From a virus: a stretch of 64,000 nucleotides of DNA. The DNA lies in IMG/VR virus record IMGVR_UViG_3300022821_000014, positions 1-64,000 of that record. One strand, written 5' to 3'. Shown one piece after another: positions 12,251-54,840 of the stretch. A program made the translations under genes and the position numbers. The notes beneath the pieces were generated by a model. It was given only the letters and a program-made list of their open reading frames with translations, was not told where the DNA came from and did not search any database. Each line of letters opens with the position of its first letter. The first letter of the stretch is position 1.

Positions 12251-13060
12251 ATGCAATTAAAAATTGAAAAAGCAAACCAGACCAAGGCAGGAATCTACAA
12301 GATAACAAATTTACACAATGGACGCTTCTACATAGGAAGTGCCAAAAACCTTTCTTCAAGGTACAAATCACATCACTCAAGCCTTCGTCGAAACAAGCAC
12401 CATAACCAATACCTCCAGAACGACTGGAACAAGTATAAAGATACTGCCATATACGAGTTCACAGCAATCCAATTTACCAGCGAAGAACAACGATTGCTCG
12501 TCGAGCAAAAATGGCTCGACAAATTATTTGATGACCCAGGGTGCTGTAATCACAAAAGAAAGGTTAACTCAAAACCTAGAAGCCGATATTCCAACACTCC
12601 CGAAGAAACTGGAAGGAAAATATCAGAAATTCGCAAGAGAAACTGGAAGGACCTCAAGTATAGGAAAGAGCAGACCAAGAAGTTGAAAAAATATGCTTTC
12701 AAGCCTAAGACGTGTACTTTCATCAGCCCAGAAGGTAACGTGACAACCATCACCAATTATAGCGAATTTTGTAGAAACAACCCGCAATATAGAAAACAGG
12801 GGTTCGTTGGGCTCGGCCTCGAAAAAACAAAATCGTACAAAGGTTGGACAAAATACAAACCCACCAGCAAAAAAATTATTCAAATGAATAAGAACGGAGC
12901 CAAGACTTGGTGGTTTAGGAATCCCGCTGGTGAGGAAATCAAAATAATCAACCTACTTAAATTTTGTAGAGAAAATAGTTTAAGCTGTCCTAGTATGCAC
13001 ATGGTTCATAGTGGAAAGCGAAATTCTCACAAAGGATGGACAAAGGCAAATGCCTGGTAA
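12251..13060 (+). CDS. GIY-YIG homing endonuclease
   Basis: This 269-residue free-standing homing endonuclease has a GIY-YIG catalytic domain at about residues 13-100: GIYKIT, then FYIGSAKN, then a catalytic-type Arg/Lys run and EQKWLD. A Lys/Arg-rich linker and two related C-terminal modules of about 40 residues follow (FISPEGNVTTITN-SEFCRNN and FRNPAGEEIKIIN-LKFCREN). Both modules end in a Y/HKGWTK motif and are probably NUMOD-type DNA-recognition units. Such enzymes nick or cut an intron- or gene-less allele to spread themselves. The gene is transcribed against the surrounding tail genes and slightly overlaps the next plus-strand gene, as expected for an inserted mobile gene. Confidence 0.9.
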   Translation: MQLKIEKANQTKAGIYKITNLHNGRFYIGSAKNLSSRYKSHHSSLRRNKHHNQYLQNDWNKYKDTAIYEFTAIQFTSEEQRLLVEQKWLDKLFDDPGCCNHKRKVNSKPRSRYSNTPEETGRKISEIRKRNWKDLKYRKEQTKKLKKYAFKPKTCTFISPEGNVTTITNYSEFCRNNPQYRKQGFVGLGLEKTKSYKGWTKYKPTSKKIIQMNKNGAKTWWFRNPAGEEIKIINLLKFCRENSLSCPSMHMVHSGKRNSHKGWTKANAW

Positions 13061-13409
13061 AAACCCAGAAAACAAGTGTATTGTGGGCCTAGAAGAGGCT
13101 CCCATTAAAGTCAAGGGCGAAAAGCTTGATGAAATTAAGCTCTCGTGGGCAGGTAAGTTATTCTTCGCTGGTGCAGCCGCCTACATTACTGGCAAAGGCT
13201 TACAGCAAAAGGTGAAGTTGCCCATCAAAGTTCGTGGGACTCCACAGCAAATGAGAGCTGTAGTCGATGCAATTGTCAGCTCGAAAGAGTTTCAAAGAGA
13301 GGTTGGTAAGCCTGGCGCTACAATTGACTCCGTTGTTAACAAACTGAGACTTCGGAACTTAACGAAGCAGCGATTCCAGCAATTGACTGGCGTTCCCTGG
13401 CCTCTTTGA
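13050..13409 (+). CDS. Conserved-looking hypothetical protein, 119 aa
   Basis: I chose the ATG at 13050 because AAAGGA lies 14 bases upstream; an alternative start at 13011 would add 13 residues. The product is basic with an amphipathic middle (LSWAGKLFFAGAAAYITGKG), then RGTPQQMRAVVDAIVSSKEFQ and NKLRLRNLTKQRFQQLTGVPWP. The second half looks like a compact helical domain. The family is not recognised. It overlaps the end of the GIY-YIG gene by 11 bases, so its original upstream region was probably replaced when the endonuclease inserted. Confidence 0.6.
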   Translation: MPGKNPENKCIVGLEEAPIKVKGEKLDEIKLSWAGKLFFAGAAAYITGKGLQQKVKLPIKVRGTPQQMRAVVDAIVSSKEFQREVGKPGATIDSVVNKLRLRNLTKQRFQQLTGVPWPL

Positions 13410-13449
13410 CGCCATACAAAACACCCTCTAGACCTAGAAACGATACCAA

Positions 13450-13626
13450 ATGAAAATCACCAAAACGCAACTTAAAAAGTTAATTCAAGAAGCTGTTAGA
13501 GAGCAAGTCGAAGCTTGTTGCTTTTTTACGAGGGCAGGCTGACATCCTAGAGAGATTCACCGAAGACTTGTAGAATGGTGGGGTAAAGGCGGTCGTCGTG
13601 CACAATTGTTTTCCCGCTTGGTTTGA
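13450..13626 (+). pseudogene. Tagged short ORF interrupted by an in-frame TGA
   Basis: From ATG 13450 the frame encodes 30 residues starting MKITKTQLKKLIQEAVREQ. It then meets TGA at 13540-13542 and continues in the same frame for 27 more residues, including HRRLVEWWGKGG, to TGA 13624-13626. The first part is a good example of the N-terminal helix tag shared by many proteins in this window. The second part is protein-like and basic. It could be a decayed gene, a sequencing error or, less likely, a readthrough product. A terminator follows immediately. Confidence 0.4.
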
Positions 13627-13630
13627 ATTA

Positions 13631-13658
13631 AAAAAGCCTCCCTTTTGGGAGGCTTTTT
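13631..13658. terminator. Bidirectional intrinsic terminator
   Basis: A perfect stem of AAAAAGCCTCCC and its complement flanks a short TTTT-type loop, with A and T tracts on both sides. It therefore works in both directions between the convergent plus-strand block and the minus-strand nucleotidase gene. Confidence 0.9.
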
Positions 13659-13677
13659 GGTTACTGCTATGACTAGT

Positions 13678-14331
13678 TCATAGTCCGAGGCGGCGTAGTT
13701 CCTCAAGGGTGGCCTGCGGGTTGTCGAATTGGTGGTGAATAGCAAGTCCACCCGCATTCCTCCACGGAACCACATATTTTGGAAGGTCATCGATGAGCAA
13801 TGCTACTTTACCTGCCTCAGCCACACGACGGATTTCTTCATGCTTTGTATGAGTGATAACAATACGGTTTCTGCCGAGACCAAGTTCACGCTTGACCCAA
13901 TCAGTTTTGCCCTTCTTTGAGTTGGGACCCATCGGGCCCGTACAAATTGTTGGGCGGTAACACTCAATATGTTCCCACAACTCACGACCGCCAGGCATCC
14001 AGTCTAAGCTGGCCCACCAAGAGCGATTGTCGGAAATGAGAGTGTACATGAGGCTACGAACCTTTTTCTTTAACTGAGGGGAGGTCTTGCCTACATTGTC
14101 AAAGCAAACGGGATTGCCCACGAGCCCAGCATCCAGGTCACCGTCAAGCTCTTGGACTGCTTTTTTTATTGCCTTGTAGAACTTTGGACTACGTTCTTTG
14201 TATCGGTTTGGTGCCGCTGCGGCCTGTTCGATTGTCTCATTCATATGAGACACAACGCCACCCATGAAGTTAACAAGGACTCCATCCAGGTCACAGAATA
14301 CTCTGAGTTTATTTCGGTCTATCTTCATCAT
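13678..14331 (-). CDS. HAD-superfamily 5'-nucleotidase-like protein
   Basis: This 217-residue protein has HAD motif I at residues 12-22 (FCDLDGVLVNF, with the two catalytic Asp). A motif III Lys lies in the KKGKTDWVKRELGL region, and a motif IV-type LIDDLPKYV lies near residue 180. This arrangement matches the NT5C/deoxyribonucleotidase branch of HAD phosphatases, which dephosphorylate (deoxy)nucleoside 5'-monophosphates. In phages they probably adjust nucleotide pools or help degrade host DNA. It overlaps the upstream metallopeptidase-like gene by 23 bases. A second, diverged HAD nucleotidase is encoded at 25368-26201. Confidence 0.75.
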   Translation of the reverse strand: MMKIDRNKLRVFCDLDGVLVNFMGGVVSHMNETIEQAAAAPNRYKERSPKFYKAIKKAVQELDGDLDAGLVGNPVCFDNVGKTSPQLKKKVRSLMYTLISDNRSWWASLDWMPGGRELWEHIECYRPTICTGPMGPNSKKGKTDWVKRELGLGRNRIVITHTKHEEIRRVAEAGKVALLIDDLPKYVVPWRNAGGLAIHHQFDNPQATLEELRRLGL

Positions 14332-24796: not shown

Positions 24797-25371
24797 TTGT
24801 CGTACCACCTTTTTTCTGGTCGGTCTTTGTCCTTCTTTTTCTTTTCACGCTTCTTTTTTATCTTCTTGTCAGTGTTGCCGCCAAGGCCTGGGTCACGTGT
24901 TGGACGACCCTCGCTGTCTAGATTATATAAATGGTCTGGGAGGGAACTACCCATTTGGAAATACTCAACAGAACCTCGTGATCCAATACGTTCTTCGCAC
25001 ATTATGTCTTCGAGCGTTGTTGTTCTAATAAAAGATTCCCAGACATAGTTTTTCGGTAAGTCTATCACCCAAGCTTCAGCGCTCTTCTCACCAGACAATT
25101 TTTTACTACTTAGGCGGTGGTGCCCGTCCTGGATATATAACATCCCGTCGTAGTTGCGAATCACTACAGGTGAACCACCACTGCTCCACTCACCAGATGC
25201 TTGCTTGGTTAGAGTTTCCTGGTCAATTTCTTCTTGTGTGGCTCTAAGTCTTGGATTGTCAAGTCGAATACTCTCCATCCTGCCTTCATCCCACAGCGGT
25301 TCGAGTTTCGAGACAATATATTTGCCTGGGTTTTCTATGACGTCTTGAGCTACTTTGAACGGAGGTTTCAT
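24793..25371 (-). CDS. ParB/sulfiredoxin-like fold protein
   Basis: The 192-residue protein contains PVVIRNYDGMLYIQDGHHRL (about 88-107) followed by strands ending AEAWVIDL. The 'D/N-G-x-x-R' strand-turn is the hallmark of the ParB/Srx nucleotide-binding fold, and here reads DGHHR. Members bind CTP or ATP, or act as nucleases, kinases or DNA-partition factors. The last 40 residues are an extreme Lys/Arg tail, likely nucleic-acid binding. It overlaps the nucleotidase upstream and the basic protein downstream. A DNA-associated regulatory role is inferred. Confidence 0.6.
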   Translation of the reverse strand: MKPPFKVAQDVIENPGKYIVSKLEPLWDEGRMESIRLDNPRLRATQEEIDQETLTKQASGEWSSGGSPVVIRNYDGMLYIQDGHHRLSSKKLSGEKSAEAWVIDLPKNYVWESFIRTTTLEDIMCEERIGSRGSVEYFQMGSSLPDHLYNLDSEGRPTRDPGLGGNTDKKIKKKREKKKKDKDRPEKRWYDK

Positions 25372-26201
25372 TTCCTACCCTTTTTTTGGGTATCAGGTTC
25401 ATCACCTGACCACATACGCTCGTGCTCGACCGACATATCTTTACCCAGTGGTGTGCCTCCTGTGCCTGATACTTTTCCAGAAGATTGTAGAGCGCCACCG
25501 CCAATTCCGATGGCACTAACTTCATTCATGCCCTTGAGTTTGGCGATGACTTCCTCAAGTTCTTTAATAGTCTTCGAAGCTTCGGTATGCATGATGGCGG
25601 TGCCGCCAGCTGCTCGAAAGCGATTGACATATTTGGGGCGATCATCAATGAGGATATCCCACTCGCTTTTGGCGAAGTTCTCTTTGCCTTTAGTACAATG
25701 GAACTCATCTGTGAGCTTGTCGATTCCATGCATCTTGACCCACTCAATTTTTTCTTCCTCACAACGTGGGTGCCTTGTCATTGGAGCTGTGAGAATGTGT
25801 GGCTTCTTACCCGTGAGTTCGGTAGCAGCCGCAATCATCTCTAATACACCAGGCATCACTTCAAGCTCTAGGAAATGTCCATCTTCACTGGCGACCTTGT
25901 AAAGCAAGCCCTCGTGCTTCTGATAGAGCTTCTTCAGCTTCTTCAGATATGGTTCTGATTGCTCGCCCTTGAGGAGTGTCTTGACATCATCCTTGTGCAT
26001 GTTGGCAATCTCGGGCTTCTTTGCCATGAAGGCCTCAAGCTCTTCTCTTGCCTGGCTAGCACTAGGGTTTGCGTCAACACGACCTGTGAAGTCAGCCAAT
26101 ACGCCATCCATATCAAAATAAATTGTTGGTTCTTGTTTTTCCAGCAACTCTTCTATCACTTCTGTTATCATGAATTTAACTAGCTTTTGTATGTTTTTCA
26201 T
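25368..26201 (-). CDS. HAD-superfamily 5'-nucleotidase-like protein with N-terminal tag
   Basis: The product has 277 residues. Residues 1-25 form an amphipathic helix (KLVKFMITEVIEELLEK) like the shared N-terminal tag. HAD motif I follows (YFDMDGVLADF, 28-38), and motif IV-like DILIDDRPKYVNRFRAAGG lies in the last third. This matches NT5C-type nucleotidases that remove 5'-phosphate from nucleotides. The C-terminal 45 residues (GIGGGALQSSGKVSGTGGT) are Gly/Ser-rich and disordered. No Shine-Dalgarno is visible before ATG 26201. A 31-codon ORF at 27033-27128 repeats this N-terminus, so the GIY-YIG gene seems to have landed in this gene's 5' end. Confidence 0.75.
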   Translation of the reverse strand: MKNIQKLVKFMITEVIEELLEKQEPTIYFDMDGVLADFTGRVDANPSASQAREELEAFMAKKPEIANMHKDDVKTLLKGEQSEPYLKKLKKLYQKHEGLLYKVASEDGHFLELEVMPGVLEMIAAATELTGKKPHILTAPMTRHPRCEEEKIEWVKMHGIDKLTDEFHCTKGKENFAKSEWDILIDDRPKYVNRFRAAGGTAIMHTEASKTIKELEEVIAKLKGMNEVSAIGIGGGALQSSGKVSGTGGTPLGKDMSVEHERMWSGDEPDTQKKGRK

Positions 26202-26217
26202 AGTAAAATATGGTGTT

Positions 26218-27057
26218 ATGGTTGTATTAGAATATACGAATGTGCTTGAATTAATAGGCCTCCCAATAAGTAGGTTTTACGTTTATGCTTTGTGTGACCC
26301 ATTGACTGGAAATCCTTTTTATATTGGTAAAGGTTCAAAAAAACGTTACAGAGACCACTTCAAAGAAGCAGCCAACAACAAGTCTTTCAACAAGTACAAA
26401 ACAAACAAAATTAATAAAATACTACGCAAAGGGAATAAAGTTATTGTTGACATAGTCTTTTCCTCCTACGCATCAAAAAAGTGTTATGTGATTGAAAAAC
26501 AATTAATAAAAAAATTTGGAAGGAAAAACAATAAAACAGGCATCTTGACCAACCTAACGGATGGTGGTGAGGGTGGTGTGTGGCGACACACAGAATTACA
26601 CAAGCAAAAACTTCGTAAAAATAACCCAGGTGCGACTGCAACGGCCAAACTGATACATCAAATAGAACCAAAATCTGGCGAAGTTATCAGAACATGGCCT
26701 TCTACTAGACAAGCGGGCCTAAATCTAAAAATTAGATCGTGGAGAAACATATCCGACTCAGCAAATAATCATAAAAACAGAGTCGTCGGCGGCTTCTATT
26801 GGAGATGGGTAAATGATAATTCAATTTTTGAAAACAAACTAATCGGTGTAGAACAACTCAACAACAACAGAAGAGATAAAAGCTTATGTGCGGGTATAAG
26901 AATTCAACAACTCTCCAAAGAAAAAAACTTTATTGCCGAATGGAAAAACATGTCGGTGGCCGCCAGGGAGTTGGGCTTTAACGTCGCTTCAATTTCACGA
27001 GCTATAAAAACAAATAAATTGTATCGTGGTTGTTACTGGTCGAAAGTGTCGAAGTAG
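26218..27057 (+). CDS. GIY-YIG homing endonuclease
   Basis: This 279-residue protein starts at the Met at 26218; a longer frame from 26170 would overlap the nucleotidase start. FYVYALCDPLTGNPFYIGKG is the GIY-YIG motif. It is followed by KKRYRDHF, with a catalytic-type Arg, and EKQLIKKFG, with the metal-binding Glu. Two C-terminal repeats, HQIEPKSGEVIRTWPSTRQA ending GGFYWRWV and QLSKEKNFIAEWKNMSVAA ending RGCYWSKV, are NUMOD1-like DNA-binding modules. It is on the opposite strand to its neighbours and more AT-rich than them, as expected for a recent arrival. Confidence 0.9.
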   Translation: MVVLEYTNVLELIGLPISRFYVYALCDPLTGNPFYIGKGSKKRYRDHFKEAANNKSFNKYKTNKINKILRKGNKVIVDIVFSSYASKKCYVIEKQLIKKFGRKNNKTGILTNLTDGGEGGVWRHTELHKQKLRKNNPGATATAKLIHQIEPKSGEVIRTWPSTRQAGLNLKIRSWRNISDSANNHKNRVVGGFYWRWVNDNSIFENKLIGVEQLNNNRRDKSLCAGIRIQQLSKEKNFIAEWKNMSVAARELGFNVASISRAIKTNKLYRGCYWSKVSK

Positions 27058-27128
27058 ACTGTTGGTTCTTGGGTCTCCACAAGTTCATCCATGACTTGCT
27101 CAACCAATAGTTCGATTAGCTTTTTCAT
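27033..27128 (-). pseudogene. Orphan 5' fragment of the HAD nucleotidase gene
   Basis: ATG 27128 overlaps the stop of the preceding gene (ATGA). The frame encodes 31 residues: an amphipathic start (KKLIELLVEQVMDELVE) and then TQEPTVYFD, before leaving homology and stopping at TAA 27033. The intact nucleotidase at 26201 begins with a similar helix followed by KQEPTIYFDMDG. Of the last 24 aligned residues, about half are identical. The GIY-YIG gene separates the two. The fragment looks like the original, translationally coupled start of the nucleotidase gene. Confidence 0.65.
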
Positions 27129-28243
27129 CCGTATGTGTGTTTCACTTGCATCTTGGTCTGGATAGCTTTAAACTTATTCAAGTCAATAAAGCGGACGTCG
27201 TAGACCTTGTCTAGACCATATTCAAATACCGTTTTGATTATGTCCCTTGAATTTGACATTTCCCTGGTCCACGAATTACTGTCTATATCGATACCAAGCT
27301 TTGGCTCTTCACCCTTTGAGAGTTTGGCCTGAGCAGCCTCTGGGAAATCTGAGAGCGGCGCTTCGACTGCCACTAGTAGTCTTGAACCACGAGGAATTTT
27401 AAGAGTATCAGAGTCTACAACCCACTCCCCCTCTGTAGAATATGTGCGAACTGAATCAACGATAGCCTTCTTCACGTGGGATGTCCACATGTCTAATGAG
27501 ACATCCTTGAATTCCTGTCGGTGTGTTGCCTTATCAACTTCCATCTTGAGGTAGCCAGCAAATTCTTTAGGAGTGTCAAGAGTAAACCCACCATCTCCAT
27601 ATGGCGCCAGAATTTTATACCCAGGTAAATACCCGTCTCGCATCGAGCGCCCCAAGTCTTCCAAGACTTTGTCTCCGTCTTTAATCATATTTTTGGCCAG
27701 GTGACTCCAAACGTTGTCAATAATACGGCGGTTTCCCCTTGGCGCCTCGTCTGCATTGAAAATGCGTCGCAGATAAGCTAAATCATCCCGAGTCAGGTCG
27801 TACGGATCATCATAGCGTACTCGGTCAACACGGCCTTGATTATCATTCATCAGTTTCTTGGCATCCATCACTAAAACAGCGTTGCGTCCAATACCGAGCC
27901 AATGCATCAGGATTTTGCGATTGTCAGAAATGCCCGATACCCCATGGAGAACACCATCGGCGAGGTCTTCTACTTTGTCCGTAACCTTTTCGTTGATTGT
28001 TGTTACGAGCCAAAATACGTTTGGGTTGCCTGGTGTAGACTTCGCTTCATCTAAAACTTCTTTTACGCACTCACTAATGAGATTTTGCAGTTCTTGCTTT
28101 TTGTTCATTTCATGTCGACTGAGTTTTTTGAAGTGCGCTAAATTAAAACCTCTGAAGGCTTCCGTTAGTGGAGCCCGCTCAGCTTCAACAAACACCTCTC
28201 TAACACATTCGCTGATGAGGACTTGCAACTCCTGTTTCTTCAT
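27125..28243 (-). CDS. Tagged paralogous protein A with duplicated N-terminal tag
   Basis: This 372-residue protein has two tandem copies of the tag: residues 1-22 (KKQELQVLISECVREVF) and 46-67 (NKKQELQNLISECVKEVLDE). The first leads to PLTEAFRGFN, with an L-x-E/A site after Glu28. The second leads to LDEA, with a site after Glu66. The remaining ~300 residues are homologous to the next gene: FWLVTT, IGRNAVLVMDAKKL, VRYDDP and EGEWVVDS-LKIPRGS. The last strand resembles the ExE strand of ADP-ribosyltransferases, but this is tentative. Processing in the capsid by a gp21-type protease is inferred. Confidence 0.6.
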   Translation of the reverse strand: MKKQELQVLISECVREVFVEAERAPLTEAFRGFNLAHFKKLSRHEMNKKQELQNLISECVKEVLDEAKSTPGNPNVFWLVTTINEKVTDKVEDLADGVLHGVSGISDNRKILMHWLGIGRNAVLVMDAKKLMNDNQGRVDRVRYDDPYDLTRDDLAYLRRIFNADEAPRGNRRIIDNVWSHLAKNMIKDGDKVLEDLGRSMRDGYLPGYKILAPYGDGGFTLDTPKEFAGYLKMEVDKATHRQEFKDVSLDMWTSHVKKAIVDSVRTYSTEGEWVVDSDTLKIPRGSRLLVAVEAPLSDFPEAAQAKLSKGEEPKLGIDIDSNSWTREMSNSRDIIKTVFEYGLDKVYDVRFIDLNKFKAIQTKMQVKHTYG

Positions 28244-29238
28244 TGCTTTGATTTCCTTGTCCAGAATTTTTTCTTGTATGCATCAAATTTCTTCATTGAG
28301 ATGAACTTGAGTCGGTAGTGGTTTTCAAGCCCATACCGTTTAGCTAGCGCCATAATCTCCAGCGCTTGTTTCTCTTGTACCATCTGCGGTGTAGGCCAGC
28401 CATTTACATGCGATCTAGGGTCTGGGTCTTGAGCAAATTCCTCACGGGCCTCATCGGAAATTGTCTTGGGGTCCACGTCAACGCCAATAAACAATATGCT
28501 GTCCTTAGGGACTGACATAGCATCGTCTTTGACAAACCATTCACCTTCAGATCGGTAGGTGGCACCGATGGCTTTGAGTGCCTTTTCCACGAGGGGCATC
28601 CAATCATCCAAAGTCAGCAACTCCGCATCCTTGACAATGTGTTTCTCATTGTCATTGGCAATCTTGATTGTGGCTTTATGAATCCATGCTGTCAGATCTT
28701 TTAGGGTATTGATAGAAGGCTTCTCAGTTTTGTATGCCCTTCCATACCAACTTGGCGCCAAAGTGCCATAGTCAATATTGTATAAGACTGTAGCCATAGG
28801 TTTACTGGCCTGCTCTGACTTCTTGCCCTGGGCCTTGACATAATCCATGACGGTTTGCATGAGGCCTGTCCAGTCGTAATCATTTTCTGGAGAGCGGTTG
28901 AAAAGCCTGAATAGGGCAGCCATCCCCTTTGAGACAAGGTAATGAGGATTGTCATACATCACACGAGAAACATTATTTACCTCAAGGAACTTCTTTGCTG
29001 GGATGACCAGGACGGCGTTTCGAGCTACTCCGAGCCATTGAACCACAATCTCCTTTGTATCGGAGATTCCTTTGACCCCTACAAGCTCCCCCGTGGCCAG
29101 CTGCTCAAGGGTATCTTCAGAGTGTTCATCGACGGAAGTCACCATCCAAAAAACCTTGGGGATGTCCGCTTCGGTGTAAGAAGCTTCACGGAGTACCTTG
29201 CGGACCTCTTGTTCTATTAAATTATTTAGGGTGCTCAT
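28240..29238 (-). CDS. Tagged paralogous protein B
   Basis: The start at 29238 gives 332 residues beginning STLNNLIEQEVRKVLREAS, a tag with L-R-E/A after Glu18. The body parallels the neighbouring protein A: FWMVTS, VARNAVLVIPAKKF, VMYDNPHYL and EGEWFVKD-MSVPKDS, then VDVDP. The pair arose by duplication. The 'EGEW...P.(G/D)S.L' region could be an ADP-ribosyltransferase-like catalytic strand, as in the packaged T4 Alt protein, but other conserved ART motifs were not clearly found. Start choice is supported by the upstream small tagged ORF, which ends one base before. Confidence 0.6.
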   Translation of the reverse strand: MSTLNNLIEQEVRKVLREASYTEADIPKVFWMVTSVDEHSEDTLEQLATGELVGVKGISDTKEIVVQWLGVARNAVLVIPAKKFLEVNNVSRVMYDNPHYLVSKGMAALFRLFNRSPENDYDWTGLMQTVMDYVKAQGKKSEQASKPMATVLYNIDYGTLAPSWYGRAYKTEKPSINTLKDLTAWIHKATIKIANDNEKHIVKDAELLTLDDWMPLVEKALKAIGATYRSEGEWFVKDDAMSVPKDSILFIGVDVDPKTISDEAREEFAQDPDPRSHVNGWPTPQMVQEKQALEIMALAKRYGLENHYRLKFISMKKFDAYKKKFWTRKSKQ

Positions 29239-29239
29239 G

Positions 29240-29410
29240 TTATCTGGTTCTCCCAACGCCACTGCCAAGGGGGTCTAGATGTGCATCTGCGTATGCGTAC
29301 ATCTCCTCGTAGGATTCAAGTTGCTGAAAGTGTCTGAAGTTAAACCCTCTAACGGATTCTGCCAGTGTCTTTCGCACTTGACTTTCAATTAATTTTTGCA
29401 AGGCGTACAT
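29240..29410 (-). CDS. Small tagged protein, 56 aa
   Basis: ATG 29410 overlaps the stop of the kinase-like gene (TGATG). The peptide begins YALQKLIESQVRKTLAESV and continues RGFNFRHFQQLES, followed by 23 residues rich in Tyr, Ala and Asp. The L-A-E/S site after Glu18 and the RGFN...F..LE motif are shared with the kinase-like protein and paralogue A. It may be a minimal packaged protein, or the remaining leader of a lost larger one. Confidence 0.6.
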   Translation of the reverse strand: MYALQKLIESQVRKTLAESVRGFNFRHFQQLESYEEMYAYADAHLDPLGSGVGRTR

Positions 29411-30114
29411 CAATCCATAAACCCTTCTTCGGTAAGCCCATAATCAGCAATAACTAGGCGTCCATCTGTTGTCATACCCCAGTGGTCATAACGCTCAATA
29501 TCCTCTATGCCTGCTCTAGTGGCCTCAAAAGCCTTTTCAAACAGTTCAAGGTCCAAGTTATTCAAATCACTCAATTCAATAGGCTTGTTTATGGTAAATT
29601 TAGTGAACTCATCTTTGTAGTGGTTGTTATGGTATTCAATGCCTTGAACCAATGCCTCGTCGAATTCTATATTCTGGTAAGCAAGCATAATCACCCATTC
29701 CAGAGCTACCTCGCTAACATGCATTTTACTCATCAGGTCAGCATTGTCAGCGATTATTTTGACACCTTCAGCTATCAACCACATATAATTTTCAGAATCG
29801 AAGTCATAAATCTTAGCCAGGAAGTCTTCAGCACCACTTTTCGTATAAGCTTCTACTTCGTTTCTTGTCTGTGTGTTGCCACGTTTACTGTGAACTATCT
29901 TCAGTATTTTGCCTGAGCCTAGTCCAAATACAATTCTTGCTGCGCCCCTGCCAAGGCGTGGAAGATGGTCTAGCGCATATTGGACTCTCTCTTCGGGAGT
30001 TTCTAAGAGCTTGAAACGCTTCATGTTAAAACCTCTCCAAGACTCAGACAAAGAAACACCTCGTAGTTCTTCAACCACAAGGCTTTCTACAAGTTGTTTT
30101 AGCGTGTTTGTCAC
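29410..30114 (-). CDS. Tagged protein-kinase-like protein
   Basis: The 234-residue product starts at GTG 30114. Residues 1-24 are the tag (TLKQLVESLVVEELRG, then SLSE before a possible cut at Ser25), followed by SWRGFNMKRFKLLE. A kinase-like fold is visible. LGRGAARIVFG (54-64) is a glycine-rich loop and GKILKIV has the strand-3 Lys (69/72). NEVEAY (85-90) offers the helix-C Glu. DHWGMTTDGRLVIADYG (210-226) parallels the catalytic loop with a DYG in place of DFG. It is smaller than typical kinases. If cleaved in the capsid it would be a virion-borne kinase. Confidence 0.6.
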   Translation of the reverse strand: MTNTLKQLVESLVVEELRGVSLSESWRGFNMKRFKLLETPEERVQYALDHLPRLGRGAARIVFGLGSGKILKIVHSKRGNTQTRNEVEAYTKSGAEDFLAKIYDFDSENYMWLIAEGVKIIADNADLMSKMHVSEVALEWVIMLAYQNIEFDEALVQGIEYHNNHYKDEFTKFTINKPIELSDLNNLDLELFEKAFEATRAGIEDIERYDHWGMTTDGRLVIADYGLTEEGFMD

Positions 30115-37431: not shown

Positions 37432-37995
37432 ATGGTTATGAAAAAAGGCTACCTAAAACAGCTAATCGAAATGGCCGTTTCGGCGGTCCTAAAAGAAATT
37501 GATAATAATGATGAATCTCATCTAGTGCCAGATGAACAAGGTGAATTTCATTCATCGGATGGTGACGATTCTAGATTTTGGGGTAATCGTGGGGCAGGTA
37601 TTTTACTGGTCGCTCAAGATACGGGCAAACTTCTTCTTGTCCTCCGTAGCGGTTATGTGAATGAACCAGGTACCTGGGGCGTCCCAGGCGGGAAGATAGA
37701 TGATGAGGATGAATCCCCAAGTGTTGCGGCCAATAGAGAAGCTGAGGAGGAGCTAGGATACTCGGGCCCTATAGACCTCGTCCCTGCTCATGTCTTCAAA
37801 TCAGGCAAGTTTCGATTCTACAACTTCATTGGTGTCGTACCAAATGAGTTTAAACCCACACTTGACTGGGAAAATGATGATGTAGGTTGGTTTTCAATTA
37901 ACGACCTTCCTTCACCACTACATTTCGGTATTCAATCACTGCTAACAAACTCCGAAAATCAAATCCTAGACGTGTTCAACTCAGTAGGTCATTAG
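37432..37995 (+). CDS. Nudix hydrolase with N-terminal tag
   Basis: The 187-residue protein starts with a tag-like helix (KKGYLKQLIEMAVSAVLKEI), then an acidic linker, then a Nudix domain. GTWGVPGGKIDDEDE begins the Nudix box, which is two residues longer than the usual G-x5-E-x7-REUxEExGU because of the ESPSVAAN insertion before REAEEELGY. The substrate is unknown. The tag suggests it may be carried in the virion with the other tagged proteins. It is one of the plus-strand genes and ends overlapping the exonuclease gene by 15 bases. Confidence 0.78.
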   Translation: MVMKKGYLKQLIEMAVSAVLKEIDNNDESHLVPDEQGEFHSSDGDDSRFWGNRGAGILLVAQDTGKLLLVLRSGYVNEPGTWGVPGGKIDDEDESPSVAANREAEEELGYSGPIDLVPAHVFKSGKFRFYNFIGVVPNEFKPTLDWENDDVGWFSINDLPSPLHFGIQSLLTNSENQILDVFNSVGH

Positions 37996-40405: not shown

Positions 40406-40813
40406 CTAGCCTATTATGACCAATTCAACATGTCCACTATCCTTAATCGACAGGAACAAACTTTCTGTTTTAAACTTGTCAATCTTATACAGTGGAATTT
40501 CTGTACCAGCTAGAATCAAGCTGCCAAAAACAACTTCGTCTGTGTTACAAGGACTAATCTCTGGTGGTCTAAAATTAATGAGAACTTCCATGATTACGCT
40601 AACCAAACTTTCAGGGTCGAGTGAGATCGCCTTGACAATTCCAAGCTCATCTTGTATTGACATTATTAGTGGCATGAGGGTATGATACCACTCGTATACA
40701 CTGTACCGACCTGTACTCCCACTATTCCAGTCATCTGATAACACATCACCTGTTTTGGGGTCTACTAGCTTTCCTGGCAATCTTGACCAATATCTTCTGG
40801 TGGCGAGTTTCAC
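40406..40813 (-). CDS. Hypothetical protein, 135 aa
   Basis: Not recognised. The start codon overlaps the stop of the RecA C-piece (ATGA), so it is likely translated with it. It begins ATRRYWSRLPGKLVDPKTGD, has a helical middle (WYHTLMPLIMSIQDELGIV) and ends in alternating hydrophobic strands. A small co-factor of recombination is possible by position only. Confidence 0.5.
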   Translation of the reverse strand: MKLATRRYWSRLPGKLVDPKTGDVLSDDWNSGSTGRYSVYEWYHTLMPLIMSIQDELGIVKAISLDPESLVSVIMEVLINFRPPEISPCNTDEVVFGSLILAGTEIPLYKIDKFKTESLFLSIKDSGHVELVIIG

Positions 40814-41841
40814 TTTCCATGCGCCTTTAGTGCCTCAGCCTCTTCAACGGAATCCTTGTTTACACCCGCAAAAGTCAAATGTTCCTTTGCATCACGTTGC
40901 ATGACCAATGCATCGGTATATAGTGCGTCAACGTACTCTTGGTAAGCAGGGTTGTAAAGAACCCTGTTGAAATTAGGCTTGTAGAATTTTTCCTCAACAA
41001 GAATTTCACCCGTACTCTGGTCAGTCACAGTGAATGTTTTCCAAGCAGCTGTGCCAGCGACGAGGATCGATTTCCCGTTATGAACTACACCGTAAGCATC
41101 CTTATCTTGTTTGATAACTTCCGTACAATGTGCACGAAACAAGTCAAAAACTTCTTCATGTTCAACAACGCCGACGCCGAAGATAATCTGGAACTCACAA
41201 GTGCGGAATGGCCGAGCTACACGGTTCTTGATCGTCTTGGCTTTCACCTTAATGCCAATGACGTTCCCTGCATTATCTTTAATTTGCTGCTGCCCAGTAG
41301 AAGAAATACGAACACGGACTGAACTTGCGTAAGGGATAGCCATCCCACCAGGTGTTGTAGTGTTGTGGTTAATAAACCCTTCAGCAATATAGTTGTGAGT
41401 GTCTTCCACTTCGCAATCAACAACTTGTATGGGGTGTTGTACTTGTTCAGCACCAATGTAGTCTTCAAGACGAATATACTCGCCATCAACAAAGATCTTA
41501 TGGTCTTTGGTGCCGTGAAGAGTATTTGCTTGGTAGTGCTCGTCTGCATTTTGTTTGACGACAAACGTTTTCAGTGGCTTCCAAACTTCCTGCTTGGATT
41601 CGTGATCATATGAGAGGATTTCATATTTTTCATGTTCTATATTGTAGATTTCTGGCGTATTTAGATCTTCTATACCTATACGTTTTGCCAATTCACGAAA
41701 TGTGATTTCCTCTTCCACGAACTGACGTTCATGCCTTGTTTCAAGATTGTGTTTTTTTATTTCGGTTTCCATAAGTTTCTGTCTTTCGGTGGCAAGCTTC
41801 ACACAATGTTCTTCCGTTTGAGGTTCTCCAAAGAGGTTCAT
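40810..41841 (-). CDS. recA: RecA C-terminal piece preceded by split-intein C-half
   Basis: The ATG at 41841 has GAGG nine bases upstream. The 343-residue product holds about 160 residues of intein, then TTTPGGMAIPYASSVRVRIS. This is the RecA L2 loop and the core strand that follows it. The C-extein continues RFCEF-type strands to KEHLTFAGVNKDS, 183 residues. The rest of RecA is encoded separately upstream and must be joined by trans-splicing. RecA/UvsX drives strand exchange in phage recombination-dependent replication. The gene's start lies inside the end of the intervening endonuclease frame. Confidence 0.85.
   Translation of the reverse strand: MNLFGEPQTEEHCVKLATERQKLMETEIKKHNLETRHERQFVEEEITFRELAKRIGIEDLNTPEIYNIEHEKYEILSYDHESKQEVWKPLKTFVVKQNADEHYQANTLHGTKDHKIFVDGEYIRLEDYIGAEQVQHPIQVVDCEVEDTHNYIAEGFINHNTTTPGGMAIPYASSVRVRISSTGQQQIKDNAGNVIGIKVKAKTIKNRVARPFRTCEFQIIFGVGVVEHEEVFDLFRAHCTEVIKQDKDAYGVVHNGKSILVAGTAAWKTFTVTDQSTGEILVEEKFYKPNFNRVLYNPAYQEYVDALYTDALVMQRDAKEHLTFAGVNKDSVEEAEALKAHGK
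41362..41841 (-). mobile_element. C-part of an atypically split RecA intein
   Basis: This piece carries almost all intein blocks: LHGTKDHKIF (block B), VDCEVEDTHNYIAEG (block F), then INHN with the terminal Asn and Thr as +1 nucleophile. The first ~40 residues (to about RHERQFVEE) overlap the endonuclease frame. EITFRELAKRIG onward looks like intein. The splice partner is only 14 residues long, so the break falls near the S1-type site close to the intein N-terminus. Confidence 0.8.
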
Positions 41842-42598
41842 ATCTTTTTGCCTCTTCAACAGATTTGATATTACCTTCTTCTAAAAGCAAACAAAAAGGA
41901 TAAATGTGATCTACGTGCAATTTTTCTGTTCTATCGCATCTGATGCATTTGTGCTCATCACGTTTCAGAGCACTCTGCCTCCATTTTCGATATGCGTAAC
42001 TTTTCCTAATCAAACTAGCGGTTTTCGTTAAACCACTTTTCCAATTTGGATTTTTTTCTTTTCTTTTTGGGTTTGCTTTATTGTATCTTATTATCCAAGA
42101 ACGCAATTTTTTCCTGTGTTCCTCGGTCGGCTGATATCTTGGACTTGGTATAGCTTTTATTGGATAAAACTGGCTAAGCTTGTCTATAATTCGTTTTGTT
42201 TTTCTTAGTTTGAGATTTAGTTTATTGGCTATGTGCCCGTAAGGTACTTCCGCCTGGCACAATGCAATTATTTGTTCATAATCTTCTGGTGATAAATCCT
42301 GGGGCAGGTATTTGATCTGCTTTTTAGCGCACTGATCCCGAACATATCTGCGATAAACCCTATCGGAAATTCCTAGTTTAGTCTTAATCCACCTGGGCGG
42401 GACGAACCTTTTATCCCAATAACCGTGAAGTTATTTAACTTGTTCCTCCGAAAGGATAACCTTCTGAGCTTCTCCAATGTTTCTTCGCCGCTCTTTCGAA
42501 AAGACCTTTCCCGTATTCGCTGCTGCGATTTTCCGCCTTGTTTCTTTTGAGTGTGCATACCTTTTTTTGTTCTTTGCTGGTTTCATGCAGCTAAACAT
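41741..42598 (-). pseudogene. HNH homing endonuclease between the recA pieces, with in-frame stop
   Basis: From the ATG at 42598, overlapping the end of the N-piece, the frame encodes a NUMOD3-like segment (HSKETRRKIAAANTGKVF), then EEQVK and TAA at 42431-42433. The same frame then runs on without interruption: HGYWDKRFVPPRWIKTKLG, then a helix-turn-helix-like region. It ends with a zinc HNH, CIRCDRTEKLHVDHIYPF followed by NGRTLCEACHRK, stopping at 41741. One nonsense change separates the two halves. The downstream half has no good ATG. It appears to be an inactivated endonuclease that earlier placed itself in the intein. Confidence 0.65.
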
Positions 42599-43325
42599 AC
42601 TTGCGAATTCGAATCCTAGTGTCTGGAGTAACGCAAGGGTCTCCAAACATGACACCGATCTTCTGACGTTGTTGGTTAATGAGAAGGAAGAGGACATTTT
42701 GGTTACCAATAATATTGACGATTTTACGCATGCCTTTACCTAACACACGGGCTTGGAGGCCAATCGTGTTAGAGTCATAATCGCCCTCAAGCTCAGCTTT
42801 AGGAGACGAGGCGGCAATAGAATCCCACACGATTGTTACTGGAACATTCTTTTGCATAGCACGAGCCTTAAGGATCGTTGATTCAGCAATTTTGAAAATT
42901 TCTTCCGTGCACGCTGTCTGACAAAAGATGAAACGGTTACTTACGTCGATACCAATTGCACTAAGGTTATCAAGGCTAGTGGCGTTTTCCGTATCTATGT
43001 AAACAACTATTCCTCCCATCTTCTGGGTCGCCTTAGAGGCTTCGAAAGCAATGTGTGATTTGCCGCTTGATGTTGGCCCCTGAATTTCTACAATCCTACC
43101 TTCTGGAAAGCCCCCGACTGCTTGGTTTGCAATGATCGCATCAAGCTGTCGTGAGCCTGTGCTAATCCATCGTTTGATATTTGTTGGGGCGTCATCGGTA
43201 GAAAGATTGAAAGCGATATTCTCGCCGTTCTCCTTGTTCAACTGCTTAATAAGGTCAGTTGTAAAGTCATCACCCATGTCATCTGCACTGGCGGTGTCTG
43301 TTGTTGTTTTTTTCTTTTTGGCCAC
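42591..43325 (-). CDS. recA: RecA N-terminal piece ending in a 14-residue N-intein
   Basis: A GTG start at 43325 follows AGAGG. The 244-residue product includes an acidic N-terminal segment and Walker A GPTSSGKS (about 80-87). VVYIDTENA is the strand with the catalytic Glu-type residue, TIVWDSIAA is Walker B, and INQQRQKIGVMFGDP leads up to the L2 loop. It then reads CVTPDTRIRIRKYV and stops. The natural RecA sequence would continue TTTPGG, which is found in the separate C-piece. Together the exteins give 413 residues, close to T4-like and bacterial RecA core lengths. Confidence 0.87.
   Translation of the reverse strand: MAKKKKTTTDTASADDMGDDFTTDLIKQLNKENGENIAFNLSTDDAPTNIKRWISTGSRQLDAIIANQAVGGFPEGRIVEIQGPTSSGKSHIAFEASKATQKMGGIVVYIDTENATSLDNLSAIGIDVSNRFIFCQTACTEEIFKIAESTILKARAMQKNVPVTIVWDSIAASSPKAELEGDYDSNTIGLQARVLGKGMRKIVNIIGNQNVLFLLINQQRQKIGVMFGDPCVTPDTRIRIRKYV
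42594..42635 (-). mobile_element. Very short N-intein of the split RecA intein
   Basis: Fourteen residues from Cys231 of the N-piece (CVTPDTRIRIRKYV) form intein block A. They are followed directly by a TAG stop. Most natural split inteins have an N-half near 90-120 residues, so this is exceptionally short. The adjacent endonuclease begins within the same bases in another frame. Confidence 0.75.
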
Positions 43326-47796: not shown

Positions 47797-48111
47797 CTAA
47801 ACTCCATTTTTATTATTCTCCTTGAGGCGGTCCTCAATGAGCTTATATAACAACTCGGCATCATGCTGGTTAGCACGATGTCTTCCCGAGTTCGTTTGCT
47901 TATGTGTAAGTGCCTCATCCATAAATTGTGACACTCTATCGTCCCTTAAAGAAACAAGCTCAACAACATAAGTCAAAAATTGTTGAGGCGTAAGACCTCT
48001 CTTGAAGAGCACCTTGCGAAGCTCTTTTAAAGAATCAGAATCGAAATCAAGGACGATTTTCGTCTTTTTGATGGACACTTTAGCCTCCAACGGGGCCAGT
48101 GACACCTGCAC
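47797..48111 (-). CDS. Hypothetical protein with RHH-like segment, 104 aa
   Basis: The pattern IKKTKIVLDFDSDSLKELRK (strand then helix) and LTPQQFLTYVVELVSLRDD (second helix) resembles ribbon-helix-helix DNA-binding proteins. The C-terminus is charged and helical. It overlaps the Gly-Asp repeat protein gene. A regulator role is tentative. Confidence 0.45.
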   Translation of the reverse strand: MQVSLAPLEAKVSIKKTKIVLDFDSDSLKELRKVLFKRGLTPQQFLTYVVELVSLRDDRVSQFMDEALTHKQTNSGRHRANQHDAELLYKLIEDRLKENNKNGV

Positions 48112-48745
48112 GTGGCTCAGGGTTTTGTGGCAAGTTCTGAGAACTTACCTCATCTTCCGTTGGCCTAAGGTCGTAGCTTGTGTCAAGAATCTCCATCATT
48201 TCTTTTGCTGTTCTCTCATCGTAGTTACTCTGAACATACTTTTCAGCACGGTTCAGGATCAGTGTGTTTAGATCAATCAGTGATGGAAGGTTATTAGTAA
48301 GCCTCGCCACGCTTCTTGTAAAGTCTTGTAGGTTGATCTTAGGGGTGTTTATAACTGGTTGTTCGCCAGCACCTGCGTCTTCACCATCTGCGGCTGGGTC
48401 TTCTTCGCCTAGATCACCACCTAGATCACCACCTAGGTCACCACCCAAATCCCCTCCGAGGTCAAGGCCGCCTTCTGCGTCAGCTTCGTCGTCAACTGGT
48501 TCTTCATCTTGTTCAAGCAGGAAATCAACAAGTGAGTCAACATTTGCCGATTCGAACATTTCAGAGGTAGGAATAGCTTCACGTTCATATTGAACGAAGT
48601 ACCGATCGATTGCTTGGTCCAACGAAAAAGCCTTGTCAGCCACACTTGCAAAATCCTGCATGGCTTCTGGGCGTTCTTGTGGTTGATATTCTTTTAGTAA
48701 GCTCTCAAGCAACACTTCAAGATTGTTTTTGTTTTTCTTGCGCAT
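48080..48745 (-). CDS. Acidic Gly-Asp repeat protein with tag-like N-terminus
   Basis: The 221-residue product starts KKNKNNLEVLLESLLKEYQP, like the tag. It then has LSLDQ-type helices and a five-fold repeat of G-G-D-L (about residues 94-113), and acidic EEDPAADGEDAG. The C-terminal half (INLQDFTRSVARLTNNLPSL) is helical. The low-complexity acidic middle may be a flexible linker or scaffold-like part. It lies directly after the SOD-domain gene. Confidence 0.5.
   Translation of the reverse strand: MRKKNKNNLEVLLESLLKEYQPQERPEAMQDFASVADKAFSLDQAIDRYFVQYEREAIPTSEMFESANVDSLVDFLLEQDEEPVDDEADAEGGLDLGGDLGGDLGGDLGGDLGEEDPAADGEDAGAGEQPVINTPKINLQDFTRSVARLTNNLPSLIDLNTLILNRAEKYVQSNYDERTAKEMMEILDTSYDLRPTEDEVSSQNLPQNPEPRAGVTGPVGG
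48409..48468. repeat. Five 12-bp tandem repeats
   Basis: Imperfect units of the form CTAGATCACCAC encode the G-G-D-L repeats in the gene on the minus strand. The first three are nearly identical, the last two diverged. Likely grew by slippage. Confidence 0.75.
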
Positions 48746-50979: not shown

Positions 50980-52497
50980 TTAGCCTACCTTTGTTTTAAT
51001 CTTGAAGCTAATTTTGCCTTTGATGCCCGTAGTAAAGAAGTTCTTCCCTGAGTTAGCATAGATTTTACCCTGGAAGTTTGGTGGGTATACCACATTAAAG
51101 TCTTTAAAGAAGGCATCGACCTTGTTCACACGACCCATTTTACTATTAACTTGGATGACAGAGCTATGATTTAAAATTGCTCTAACAGCTGCATCAAATG
51201 AGTCTTCTCTGTTAATCTGAGCTGTTAGTCTCTTTGCAATTCCTGCGAGCAGATGAAAGAATGGGTGGTAGGTAGGTGGTGGGTCGATGATCTCCCAAGG
51301 AGTTTTGCCCCACATTTGCTTAGAAAGCTCAATGAGATTTGGTGTAGACAAGCTTGGGTGGTTTGCCTTCATTCCCTGAACAGCTTTGTCCCTACGCATC
51401 CTTCTCATGTTGACGACAACCTTCATATCCTGGTCGTCTACAATACCCATAATTTTAGCTGATTCCAAGACACCGAGGATTGCGTTGTTGTTGTTAATTG
51501 TTTGAATGATGCTGATTGGAAATCCATATTCGCTCAGGATATGCTGATAACCCTTAGGGTTCTTAGATTGAATTTCGTTCAAAATAGAAAGAAGTGAAGT
51601 CACAGATGCTGCTGCACCTGTGCCAGCCTTAGAGCTAATTCCAACCTTCATTCCATTTGGCGCTTCCAACTCTGAATCTACAAGAGCATTGGTGGCTGAC
51701 TGGAAGAAGCGAATTCTGCACTGAGCATATGAACTTTGTGGTAACAGTATCTTCTCGGAAGAAGCTCTGTCTCCTGTGGACACCCAATTGGACACGACGG
51801 ATATTGGTGCAAGTATCTCGCCAAGATACTTGTTGTATGCCTTCGCATATTTGTTACCACCAGGCAAAACTGGGGACTGCCCGCCTTTTAAGGCGGCGTC
51901 TAATAGCATCTCAACGTGCTCTCCAGCTTCAGCAGGCAAGCCTCCAGATTTTACCATTAGTGCAGTGTTGGTCTTCGCAGTTGATACTACTTCTGCCACA
52001 GTACGGAGATTTTCATCCTGTATGAGGTCACTAGGCTTTAGCGCAAAACCTTCAAGGGCTGCGGCCCCCTTCTTGAGTTTCAGGCCCGTGTCTCTAGCAA
52101 ACTTGGCCATCGTCCATTTGCCATATCCACCATTTTTTGTATTTTGGACATACCTGATATAACCACGGTAGGTGTTATCCTCTTTATTTAAGAGATAAAT
52201 TAAGATGGCACCTTTTTTGTCAGCAGTGATTGAGTTAACTTCTATTAACTCAACATCTATTTCTTCAGTGTTCAGCTCCAGAAATGAATCGACAGCATCT
52301 GAAAGCTCTTCTGAGGAATCGAATGAATCAGATTCACCTGGGAACTTTCGGATGTTGGCAATTTCATATTCTGTTCCATCATTATCAACTAGCAATTGCC
52401 CAGTTTCTCTCGCAGCTACCCCACGGGCTTCGCTCAGGTATAGGCTGATTTCACTATCAATCGCTGACTCAATTAAACGGAGAAGTTGTTTGGACAT
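50980..52497 (-). CDS. Tagged hypothetical protein, 505 aa
   Basis: The product begins SKQLLRLIESAIDSEISLYL, then SEARG with an L-S-E/A site after Glu23. The N-terminal ~120 residues are acidic. The middle contains APNGMKVGISSKAGTGAAAS, a Gly/Ala/Ser loop, followed by VTSLLSILNEIQSKNPKG. The rest is helical. The function is not recognised; it could be a virion enzyme carried with the DNA. It lies just after the DnaE C-piece in the minus direction. Confidence 0.55.
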   Translation of the reverse strand: MSKQLLRLIESAIDSEISLYLSEARGVAARETGQLLVDNDGTEYEIANIRKFPGESDSFDSSEELSDAVDSFLELNTEEIDVELIEVNSITADKKGAILIYLLNKEDNTYRGYIRYVQNTKNGGYGKWTMAKFARDTGLKLKKGAAALEGFALKPSDLIQDENLRTVAEVVSTAKTNTALMVKSGGLPAEAGEHVEMLLDAALKGGQSPVLPGGNKYAKAYNKYLGEILAPISVVSNWVSTGDRASSEKILLPQSSYAQCRIRFFQSATNALVDSELEAPNGMKVGISSKAGTGAAASVTSLLSILNEIQSKNPKGYQHILSEYGFPISIIQTINNNNAILGVLESAKIMGIVDDQDMKVVVNMRRMRRDKAVQGMKANHPSLSTPNLIELSKQMWGKTPWEIIDPPPTYHPFFHLLAGIAKRLTAQINREDSFDAAVRAILNHSSVIQVNSKMGRVNKVDAFFKDFNVVYPPNFQGKIYANSGKNFFTTGIKGKISFKIKTKVG

Positions 52498-52509: not shown

Positions 52510-54840
52510 TTAGTCATCTTTACGTTCGATCACATCCAACTTGGTAAAATGTGTTGAAAGGCCGAAATCTGACTTTTTAAATCTAGCTAACACAAGTGTA
52601 TTGCTAGGAATCACTGCATCACGCTTAGGGTTGAATCCCCAGATAAAACACCCCTGCTCTGAGCCAGACTCTCCATAGACTTTCATTCTCAGATATGGTT
52701 TTCCATTCCTTGTTTTGGCTACTACACTTCGTTTTACAACTGCCCAATAATAACTGTTTTCACTGCGCCATTCATCAACAGACCCAATACCATTTTCTTC
52801 GAAGTAGGCCTTGATCTCCTTTGTGATGATAAGGTTGATGTTCACTGAACCTGCAAGCGTCTGACTGTGCTCGATCTTCTCATCAATCGTCCAGTCCTTA
52901 AGCCCCTGAGCCTCCTTAATAAGGTCTTCCAGGATTTCTGGTGGACGTGGTTCTTTTTTCCGTGAACAGGCTCTTTTTAGATTATCAGCTTGGTCGACAA
53001 GCACATAATGCATTTGGCGATAGTTCTTGAACATCTTGTCTTCACCGACAAGGTCCATAGACTCAAAAGCTTCAAGCTTTATAAGAGTTGAAAGGGCTCT
53101 CTTGTTGAATTTGCTGTGCCTCCATGTCTGATCCTGATTCCATAGAAGCTCCTCAACCGTTTTGTAGGGTCGGAATTCTTGAATTTCCCTTAGTGTGGGC
53201 ATGCCAACATGCTTCAGTGCCTGGAAACTTGGAATTAGCACTCCGTTTTTGACCTGATAATCTGCCTCAGACTCGTTGATGTCAGGCTTCCCAACCTTGT
53301 AACCAAGACCCTTAGCTTCACCAAGGGCGATTGAGATAGGCGCTTCTTTGCCTGTAACGTGTCCCTTATCAGTTGCACAGTAATCGATATAACTGGCCAT
53401 CCACTCATCTGGATGATAGGTGAGAAGCCAAGCACACTGATATGAAGTGATGGCATAGGCGGTAGCGTGGCTCTTATTGAACGAGTATGCTACGAACTCT
53501 TCCATCTCGTCAAAAATCTTGTAGCTGGTAATCAGCTGCGTGCCGTGTACTTCTTTGCATTTGATGGCGAAATCTTCACGCATCTGCTTTCTCTGTGCGT
53601 CAGCTGCACCCTTGTTAGATTTGTCCTTCTTTGTGAAGGATTTACGAACCATGTCGGTCTCTTCGAGAGGAACCCCAGCCATCTGATGGTAGATGAGCTG
53701 TAGTTGCTCCTGGAAAACAATTAGTCCACAGGTGACATCCAGCACCTCTTCGAGTAACTCATGTTTGTAGATGATGCTCTCAGGGTTTTTGCGGTTGTTC
53801 AAATACAACTTGTCAGCTCCGATGGCTAGAGGTCCAGGGCGGAAAATCGAAGTTGCTGTTGCGATATCAAGGATGGTCCTTGGCTTCATCTTCTTAATGA
53901 ATTTCTGTACGGGAGGCTGGACGAACTGAAAAACTCCAGCCCAGTTGCCGTTCCAATACACATGTTTGTAGACTTTGATGTCATCCATCTGATTGTTGTC
54001 TGGATGAAGGTTCGTATAGAACCAGTCCTGCACATTTCGGAATGTTGGGTATTTGGTACCCTGTTTCTTTAGAATACGTCGAATTGTGTTCTCAAATATC
54101 CTAAGCGTACCAAGCCCAAGAATATCAAACTTTAGAAGCCCGAAACCTTCAAGGTGACGAAAATTCAATCCCTCTTGCCAAGGCGTTTGAAGAACCCCAC
54201 CGCTCTTGATGAGCGGCATGTGCTTATTGGGAGTCTCCGTAATGATGACGCCGCCAGCATGTCGTGAGACGTTTCTCATTTGCTTGAACAACACCTTGAT
54301 GTTGTTTTCAAGGTCAGGGAACTCAACCATAAGCTCCTGAAAAGTCTTGGACTTCTCAGCTGCCTCGTCAAATGTCAATGTCCACAGCTGTCGGTCGAAG
54401 CCTGGCTTCTTCTTCGCCTCACCCAATGCCTCACTTTCAATTTTACGTGTGTATTTATTGACCTCTTCGAATGGCACTCCATTCAAGCGACACAAGTCCT
54501 TAACCAATGAGCGCATTTGAAGTTGGTTGAAGTTAGAAATCGGGATGACGTTCTCTTCACCAAAGTGTTCAGCAATAAGCTGAACTGCTTTCTCACGGTC
54601 TGAGAAATCAGAGTCAATATCGGGAAAGCCTTTCTTGAAGCGTGTGAGGAAACGCTCAAAAAGTAGGCCATACCTGATCGGGTCTAGCTGAGTAATGTTC
54701 AGAACATAAGCAAGCAAAGACCCGCCAGCAGAATTGTGTACTCCTAATCCTTCAATGTTATATGAATGAGATTCACTGACGGTGAGATCATGAACCTTGC
54801 CTGTGTAATGGAATAGAGTCTTTTTTGTTAGCTTTGCCAA
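52510..54840 (-). CDS. dnaE: DNA polymerase III alpha, C-piece with split-intein C-half
   Basis: The TTG start at 54840 has AAGGA eight bases upstream. The 776-residue product starts with 36 residues of intein ending VHN, then SAGGSLLAYVLNIT, the conserved palm motif. GFPDIDSDFS follows with catalytic aspartates at 74, 76 and 78 (P-D-x-D-x-D-F). Beta-binding and OB-like parts follow to the C-terminus. The N-half of the polymerase is encoded separately at 55912. Trans-splicing is required for an active bacterial-type replicase. Confidence 0.9.
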   Translation of the reverse strand: MAKLTKKTLFHYTGKVHDLTVSESHSYNIEGLGVHNSAGGSLLAYVLNITQLDPIRYGLLFERFLTRFKKGFPDIDSDFSDREKAVQLIAEHFGEENVIPISNFNQLQMRSLVKDLCRLNGVPFEEVNKYTRKIESEALGEAKKKPGFDRQLWTLTFDEAAEKSKTFQELMVEFPDLENNIKVLFKQMRNVSRHAGGVIITETPNKHMPLIKSGGVLQTPWQEGLNFRHLEGFGLLKFDILGLGTLRIFENTIRRILKKQGTKYPTFRNVQDWFYTNLHPDNNQMDDIKVYKHVYWNGNWAGVFQFVQPPVQKFIKKMKPRTILDIATATSIFRPGPLAIGADKLYLNNRKNPESIIYKHELLEEVLDVTCGLIVFQEQLQLIYHQMAGVPLEETDMVRKSFTKKDKSNKGAADAQRKQMREDFAIKCKEVHGTQLITSYKIFDEMEEFVAYSFNKSHATAYAITSYQCAWLLTYHPDEWMASYIDYCATDKGHVTGKEAPISIALGEAKGLGYKVGKPDINESEADYQVKNGVLIPSFQALKHVGMPTLREIQEFRPYKTVEELLWNQDQTWRHSKFNKRALSTLIKLEAFESMDLVGEDKMFKNYRQMHYVLVDQADNLKRACSRKKEPRPPEILEDLIKEAQGLKDWTIDEKIEHSQTLAGSVNINLIITKEIKAYFEENGIGSVDEWRSENSYYWAVVKRSVVAKTRNGKPYLRMKVYGESGSEQGCFIWGFNPKRDAVIPSNTLVLARFKKSDFGLSTHFTKLDVIERKDD
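54733..54840 (-). mobile_element. C-half of the split DnaE intein
   Basis: Thirty-six residues with VHDLTVSESHSYNIEGLGVHN. Block F (HDLTV...HSYN) and block G (VHN) are clear, and the +1 residue is Ser. The length is typical of natural split inteins. Confidence 0.88.

Follow-up and report, generated by a model that had tools for sequence, protein, structure and literature searches.

In the viral record IMGVR_UViG_3300022821_000014 (90,967 bases), from an uncultured phage, a free-standing GIY-YIG endonuclease gene lies between a truncated 5' end of a nucleotidase gene and an intact nucleotidase gene that begins with a diverged copy of the same 5' end. The explanation that fits best, to which we assign a probability of about 0.72, is that a mobile unit consisting of the endonuclease gene and diverged, AT-rich codons 1 to 30 was inserted between native nucleotidase codons 27 and 28. 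The window, meaning the whole 64,000-base stretch of DNA that was analyzed, comprises bases 1 to 64000 of the record, and the locus within it contains the following features.

27125..28243, minus strand: upstream gene, function unknown; its core probably begins at 28108
27033..27128, minus strand: orphan ORF of 31 codons, with codons 1 to 27 read as the native nucleotidase 5' end (helix tag and first beta strand)
26112..27047, no strand: inferred inserted unit of 936 bp, placed where the end of the orphan homology and the GC changepoint coincide
26218..27057, plus strand: free-standing GIY-YIG (LEM-3-like) endonuclease gene (PF22945, phrog_5356, family invariants)
26112..26201, minus strand: putative replacement 5' end of the nucleotidase, codons 1 to 30 (GC 0.28, without a Shine-Dalgarno sequence)
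25368..26111, minus strand: remainder of the nucleotidase from codon 31 onward, presumed native (GC 0.49)
25368..25529, minus strand: C-terminal module GGG..TGG.PLG.DM..EH..MWSG, found in separate genes in relatives

On the minus strand, the gene of unknown function (28243-27125) is followed by the 31-codon ORF (27128-27033) and the nucleotidase (26201-25368), with the GIY-YIG ORF on the plus strand separating the last two. The start of the orphan, which is translated as MKKLIELLVEQVMDELVETQEPTVYFDTFDQ, overlaps, as ATGA, the stop codon at 27125-27127 that ends the upstream gene. Its first beta strand carries the catalytic Asp and, past codon 27, it continues through four codons of endonuclease DNA to a stop. 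An earlier, sequence-only reading had described this ORF as coupled to the gene before it and the GIY-YIG gene as lying between an orphan 5' fragment and an intact nucleotidase; both descriptions hold, coordinates included, as does the remark that the nucleotidase lacks a visible Shine-Dalgarno sequence, none having been found upstream of 26201. The start that it assigned to the nucleotidase, at KQEPT, had to be corrected: the real start is 22 codons earlier, and the gene has its own diverged copy of the helix. The nucleotidase is an NT5C-type HAD enzyme (member of Pfam NT5C, E = 1.8e-11) that keeps the conserved DxDG and IDD motifs. The C-terminal module fused to it occurs in relatives as separate tagged genes (L017:5981-6778, L097:6301-7131, and L100:6294-6944). 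A scan of the junctions for promoters and terminators gave no signal above chance, and the region has no nucleotide match in sequenced phages.

The GIY-YIG ORF is open from 26170 to 27057 on the plus strand, with a likely start at 26218. Its product matches Pfam PF22945 (E = 1.1e-11, above the curated cut-off) as well as phrog_5356 and has the family-invariant FYVY, YIGKG, R43, E93, and N112 (set A4), with the catalytic Y, R, E, and N of the GIY-YIG domain all present. Judged by its sequence, the protein is a LEM-3-like free-standing GIY-YIG homing endonuclease, cleavage and homing being inferred. Its relatives are free-standing genes in other phages, some of them beside the major capsid gene, and only four loci of the family were found in bacterial genomes. 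The gene is antisense to the nucleotidase, and its stop codon lies inside the YF codons of the orphan, that is, in native nucleotidase sequence. No Rfam intron family, and hence no group I intron core between the gene parts, was matched within 25900-27400. The endonuclease has its own start and stop, and the gene fits the free-standing class, whose members lie outside self-splicing introns and inteins. A second GIY-YIG gene (12251-13060, plus strand) is divergent from a 1,534-codon gene ending at 12177; together with a 30-codon ORF that encodes only a helix tag (13450-13542, plus strand) and a second HAD nucleotidase (13678-14331, minus strand), it falls within 12251-14331 of the window. The RecA-like (40810-43325, minus strand) and DNA polymerase III alpha (52510-57654, minus strand) genes appear broken, with intein-like ends and with endonuclease-like genes between their parts (41741-42262 and 54788-55744, respectively), and recall the published fractured genes with split inteins.

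Codons 1 to 27 of the orphan align without gaps to nucleotidase codons 4 to 30, sharing 13 of 27 amino acids and 52 of 81 nucleotides, and blastp between the two flanks of the endonuclease gave an E value of 1.8e-5. Matches at codon positions 1, 2, and 3 numbered 16, 25, and 11 of 27, leaving 11, 2, and 16 differences (chi-square p = 0.005), and this excess of differences at third positions indicates that both copies evolved as coding sequence. The tag part alone matches at 32 of 54 nucleotides (codon-shuffle p = 0.0006), and the other tagged gene starts that were tried align worse (27/54 or less). The match between orphan and nucleotidase exceeds chance. The two copies differ from each other as much as from other phages, so the pair did not arise by recent duplication of the gene now present. 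From the orphan to the intact gene, the VYFD codons GTC TAC TTC GAC become the IYFD codons ATT TAT TTT GAT.

The N-terminal amphipathic helix of about 20 residues is common to many unrelated enzymes, including nucleotidase, kinase-like, NUDIX, and tRNA nucleotidyltransferase proteins. Helix-tagged genes are located in the window at 25368-30114 (minus strand), 37432-37995 (plus strand), 48080-48745 (minus strand), and 50980-52497 (minus strand), and the tag was also seen elsewhere (L004:7358-8908, L017, L097, and L100). It often ends in (L/I)-x-E, like T4 prohead-protease sites, and may serve to direct injected proteins to the capsid.

A maximum-likelihood search for a GC changepoint along 660 bases of the nucleotidase placed the break at 26109-26111, at codon 31 (2-unit support, 26096-26117; 0 of 500 permutations). 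GC content is 0.28 in codons 1 to 30, 0.37 in the endonuclease gene, 0.42 in the orphan, and 0.49 in the remainder of the nucleotidase. Gene starts have a general tendency to be AT-rich (mean GC drop of 0.04 in this genome), a point against the insertion reading; the break in the nucleotidase is the strongest near a gene start among 36 window genes (LLR 10.5, with the next at 6.7). In the intact gene, homology to the orphan ends at 26112 (codon 30/31); in the orphan, it ends where endonuclease-specific DNA begins. Homology and composition are two independent signals, and they mark one point, between the DMDG codons for the catalytic Asp and for Met. The inferred unit contains the endonuclease gene and replacement nucleotidase codons 1 to 30 and is positioned after native codon 27 (Asp) and before codon 28 (Met). 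With the composition break sitting at the orphan cut-off, the best fit remains the one suggested from the sequence alone, an insertion in which the 5' end was replaced, perhaps by that of a related phage.

Four viral contigs, representing three distinct sequences (L017, L097/L098, and L100), carry an orthologous nucleotidase with 39 to 40% identity in the same neighborhood, which runs from ribonucleotide reductase to thymidylate synthase. In each, the single 5' end is helix-tagged and packed against the preceding gene, and neither an endonuclease nor an orphan is present at the nucleotidase in these sequences. Comparison with relatives lacking the endonuclease was the check proposed by the sequence-only reading, and the intact tagged nucleotidases of the three distinct sequences bear it out; relatives with both ORFs and no endonuclease between them, which would have refuted it, were not found. 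Alignment scores of the orphan versus the intact start were 49.5 versus 42.0, 45.0 versus 35.5, and 52.0 versus 43.5 against the three relatives. The orphan resembles the 5' ends of the relatives more than the start of the intact gene does, in agreement with the claim of a replaced 5' end. We interpret the orphan as the original 5' end, still in its native position, and the intact start as the newcomer. A near-identical empty site was not seen, the nearest relatives being only about 40% identical in protein. Viral contigs contained no close relatives of the nucleotidase, the upstream gene, or the QEPT[VI]YFDMDG DNA pattern, and no nucleotidase was detectable in TerL relatives. A pair of adjacent paralogous genes (34% identical) was not found in the relatives. 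A 27-kb contig (L008; IMGVR_UViG_3300022845_000015) encodes a terminase 100% identical to that of this phage, and the nucleotidase search found no match in it.

In the mechanism that we propose, the endonuclease would cut the native QEPTVYFD-MDG region, and repair would copy a donor unit (endonuclease gene plus gene end) from another phage, with the 5' end deriving from that phage's nucleotidase. The donor is an inference, and none was identified for the 5' end of the unit. Entry would occur within the catalytic DMDG motif, after native codon 27 and before codon 28, and would sever the native 5' end, which would persist as the 31-codon orphan, while the arriving 5' end, with its own start codon and in frame with native codon 31 onward, would restore a complete gene, whose expression as a hybrid is likewise inferred. 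The recoding of VYFD to IYFD may help to shield the restored gene from renewed cutting.

To survey the layout, the translated left and right flanks of 67 distinct loci of this GIY-YIG family were compared; a locus passed when a short ORF was present on one side and both matches were ≤300 bases from the endonuclease gene, at E < 0.01, with the geometric criterion fixed only after a first look. Three of the 67 endonuclease loci passed; in each, the endonuclease gene separates a truncated gene end from an intact gene whose own end has diverged. Among 588 gaps placed elsewhere as controls, 2 passed (Fisher p = 0.009). At L146 (also L147 and L148; the layout is present in three data sets), a 48-codon orphan and the endonuclease precede a portal protein gene, the first ~41 codons of which are 59% identical to the orphan. 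The GC content of its new 5' end (0.36) is closer to that of the endonuclease gene (0.40) than to that of the orphan (0.62) or the gene remainder (0.50), with a weak changepoint (21 of 300 permutations). In L192, a portal relative with 83% identity, the gene has one 5' end, and no endonuclease ORF precedes it. The C-terminal region of the portal protein (L146:4848-7055) matches ADP-ribosyltransferase families (phrog_3895, E = 5e-12). L187 has a 29-codon orphan, the endonuclease, and a 313-codon gene of the crAss-like replication module, orphan and gene being 57% identical over 28 codons; in the crAss relative cr106_1, this gene has one 5' end and no endonuclease. L131 is a 3'-end case, in which the 3' end of a macro-domain phosphatase gene is intact and is followed by an antisense endonuclease and an orphan 3' end, with a weak flank match (E = 0.003). 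The GC changepoint was not significant in L187 or L131, and no new case came from eight additional endonuclease ORFs in the loci, including one from the window itself. Flank matches at L125, L136, L137, L172, L173, L178, and L185 were artifacts of wrong ORF ends, and that at L154 was a low-complexity artifact.

Truncated 5' ends could also have been left by tandem duplication or recombination among helix-tagged genes, with the endonuclease gene landing later beside one of them. Two fragments in the same operon correspond to truncated 5' ends of the kinase-like gene at 29410-30114, one at 29240-29413 (minus strand) and one in the first 45 codons of 27125-28243 (minus strand), with alignment scores to the kinase of 97 and 56; each directly precedes another tagged gene, and no endonuclease is nearby. 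Such orphans can therefore arise otherwise, in these cases perhaps by recombination among shared tag sequences, and tagged genes and fused modules have been much shuffled in the relatives. We nevertheless consider this origin unlikely for the nucleotidase orphan, as it predicts neither a composition break precisely at the codon at which the orphan is cut off nor an endonuclease stop codon inside the last homologous codons of the orphan, nor the layout in L146 and L187, phages without such tag arrays.

Somewhat less probable again is a one-sided co-conversion that brought in a whole nucleotidase with the endonuclease, so that only the native first 27 codons remained. The endonuclease adjoins the gene that it would cut, and flanking-gene co-conversion is established for the intronless homing of T4 SegF and SegG (PMC2988022); however, composition shifts at codon 30/31 of the intact gene, which is genome-like from there on. 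An assembly chimera of two phage variants would be compatible with a single metagenomic record in which the region has no second copy that could be found, but it is hard to reconcile with the clean open frames and exact boundaries at the nucleotidase locus or with other contigs sharing the layout, including L146 to L148 in three data sets, and appears very improbable.

Insertion of a unit carrying its own gene end may extend beyond this locus. We give even odds to a recurring phage homing element in which an endonuclease gene and a recoded target-gene end travel as one unit and force entry into conserved regions (portal, replication gene, and nucleotidase), the carried end restoring the gene, blocking re-cutting, and swapping ends between phages. 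The same layout in three unrelated phages suggests a general, harmless entry route into important genes; the nucleotidase has not been shown to be essential. Such an element would explain how a free-standing endonuclease, without an intron or intein, can occupy a conserved catalytic motif or sit in a portal gene while the gene still works. It predicts overlooked gene-end orphans beside endonuclease genes in phage annotations, gene ends that move between phages apart from the rest of the gene, and a native cut site readable from the orphan-gene junction, the last of which would make cut-site prediction for uncharacterized GIY-YIG enzymes directly testable.

No phage precedent was found in the open literature, from which most subscription journals are missing. 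Phage free-standing endonuclease genes are described as intergenic, gene-splitting, or near introns in the portions of PMC2988022 and PMC10448857 that were consulted, and those portions describe no replaced gene end. The T4 SegA to SegG genes (PMC2988022) are similar in being free-standing phage GIY-YIG genes beside a presumed target, with co-conversion possible; unlike the present case, the T4 genes are described as intergenic insertions or as splitting a gene in two (nrdA and gene 43), and the antisense orientation seen here is an exception among them (segD). Introns with N-terminal duplications are known in fungal mitochondria (PMC7315562), where the element carries a diverged version of a host-gene segment and this version replaces the native stretch, but those introns are spliced, whereas no intron was detected here. 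By analogy, the closest known counterparts are fungal mitochondrial elements, the mobile endonuclease ORFs that carry foreign C termini in Allomyces atp6 and in Glomus atp6, atp9, cox2, and nad3 (PMC3630166). There too, an endonuclease gene and a foreign gene end are inserted in a gene, the native end becomes a truncated orphan, and the hybrid gene stays in frame, with the fungal copies being 64 to 81% identical in DNA (PMC3630166). The present case differs in being in phage DNA, in having the 5' end replaced and the endonuclease antisense, and in that expression of the hybrid has not been shown. Three of the features that mark the fungal elements recur at this locus: the native end is nearer to element-free relatives (in three of three comparisons, with modest margins and distant relatives), a truncated native end lies beyond the endonuclease (the orphan at 27033-27128), and the replacement end is diverged and in frame with the gene.
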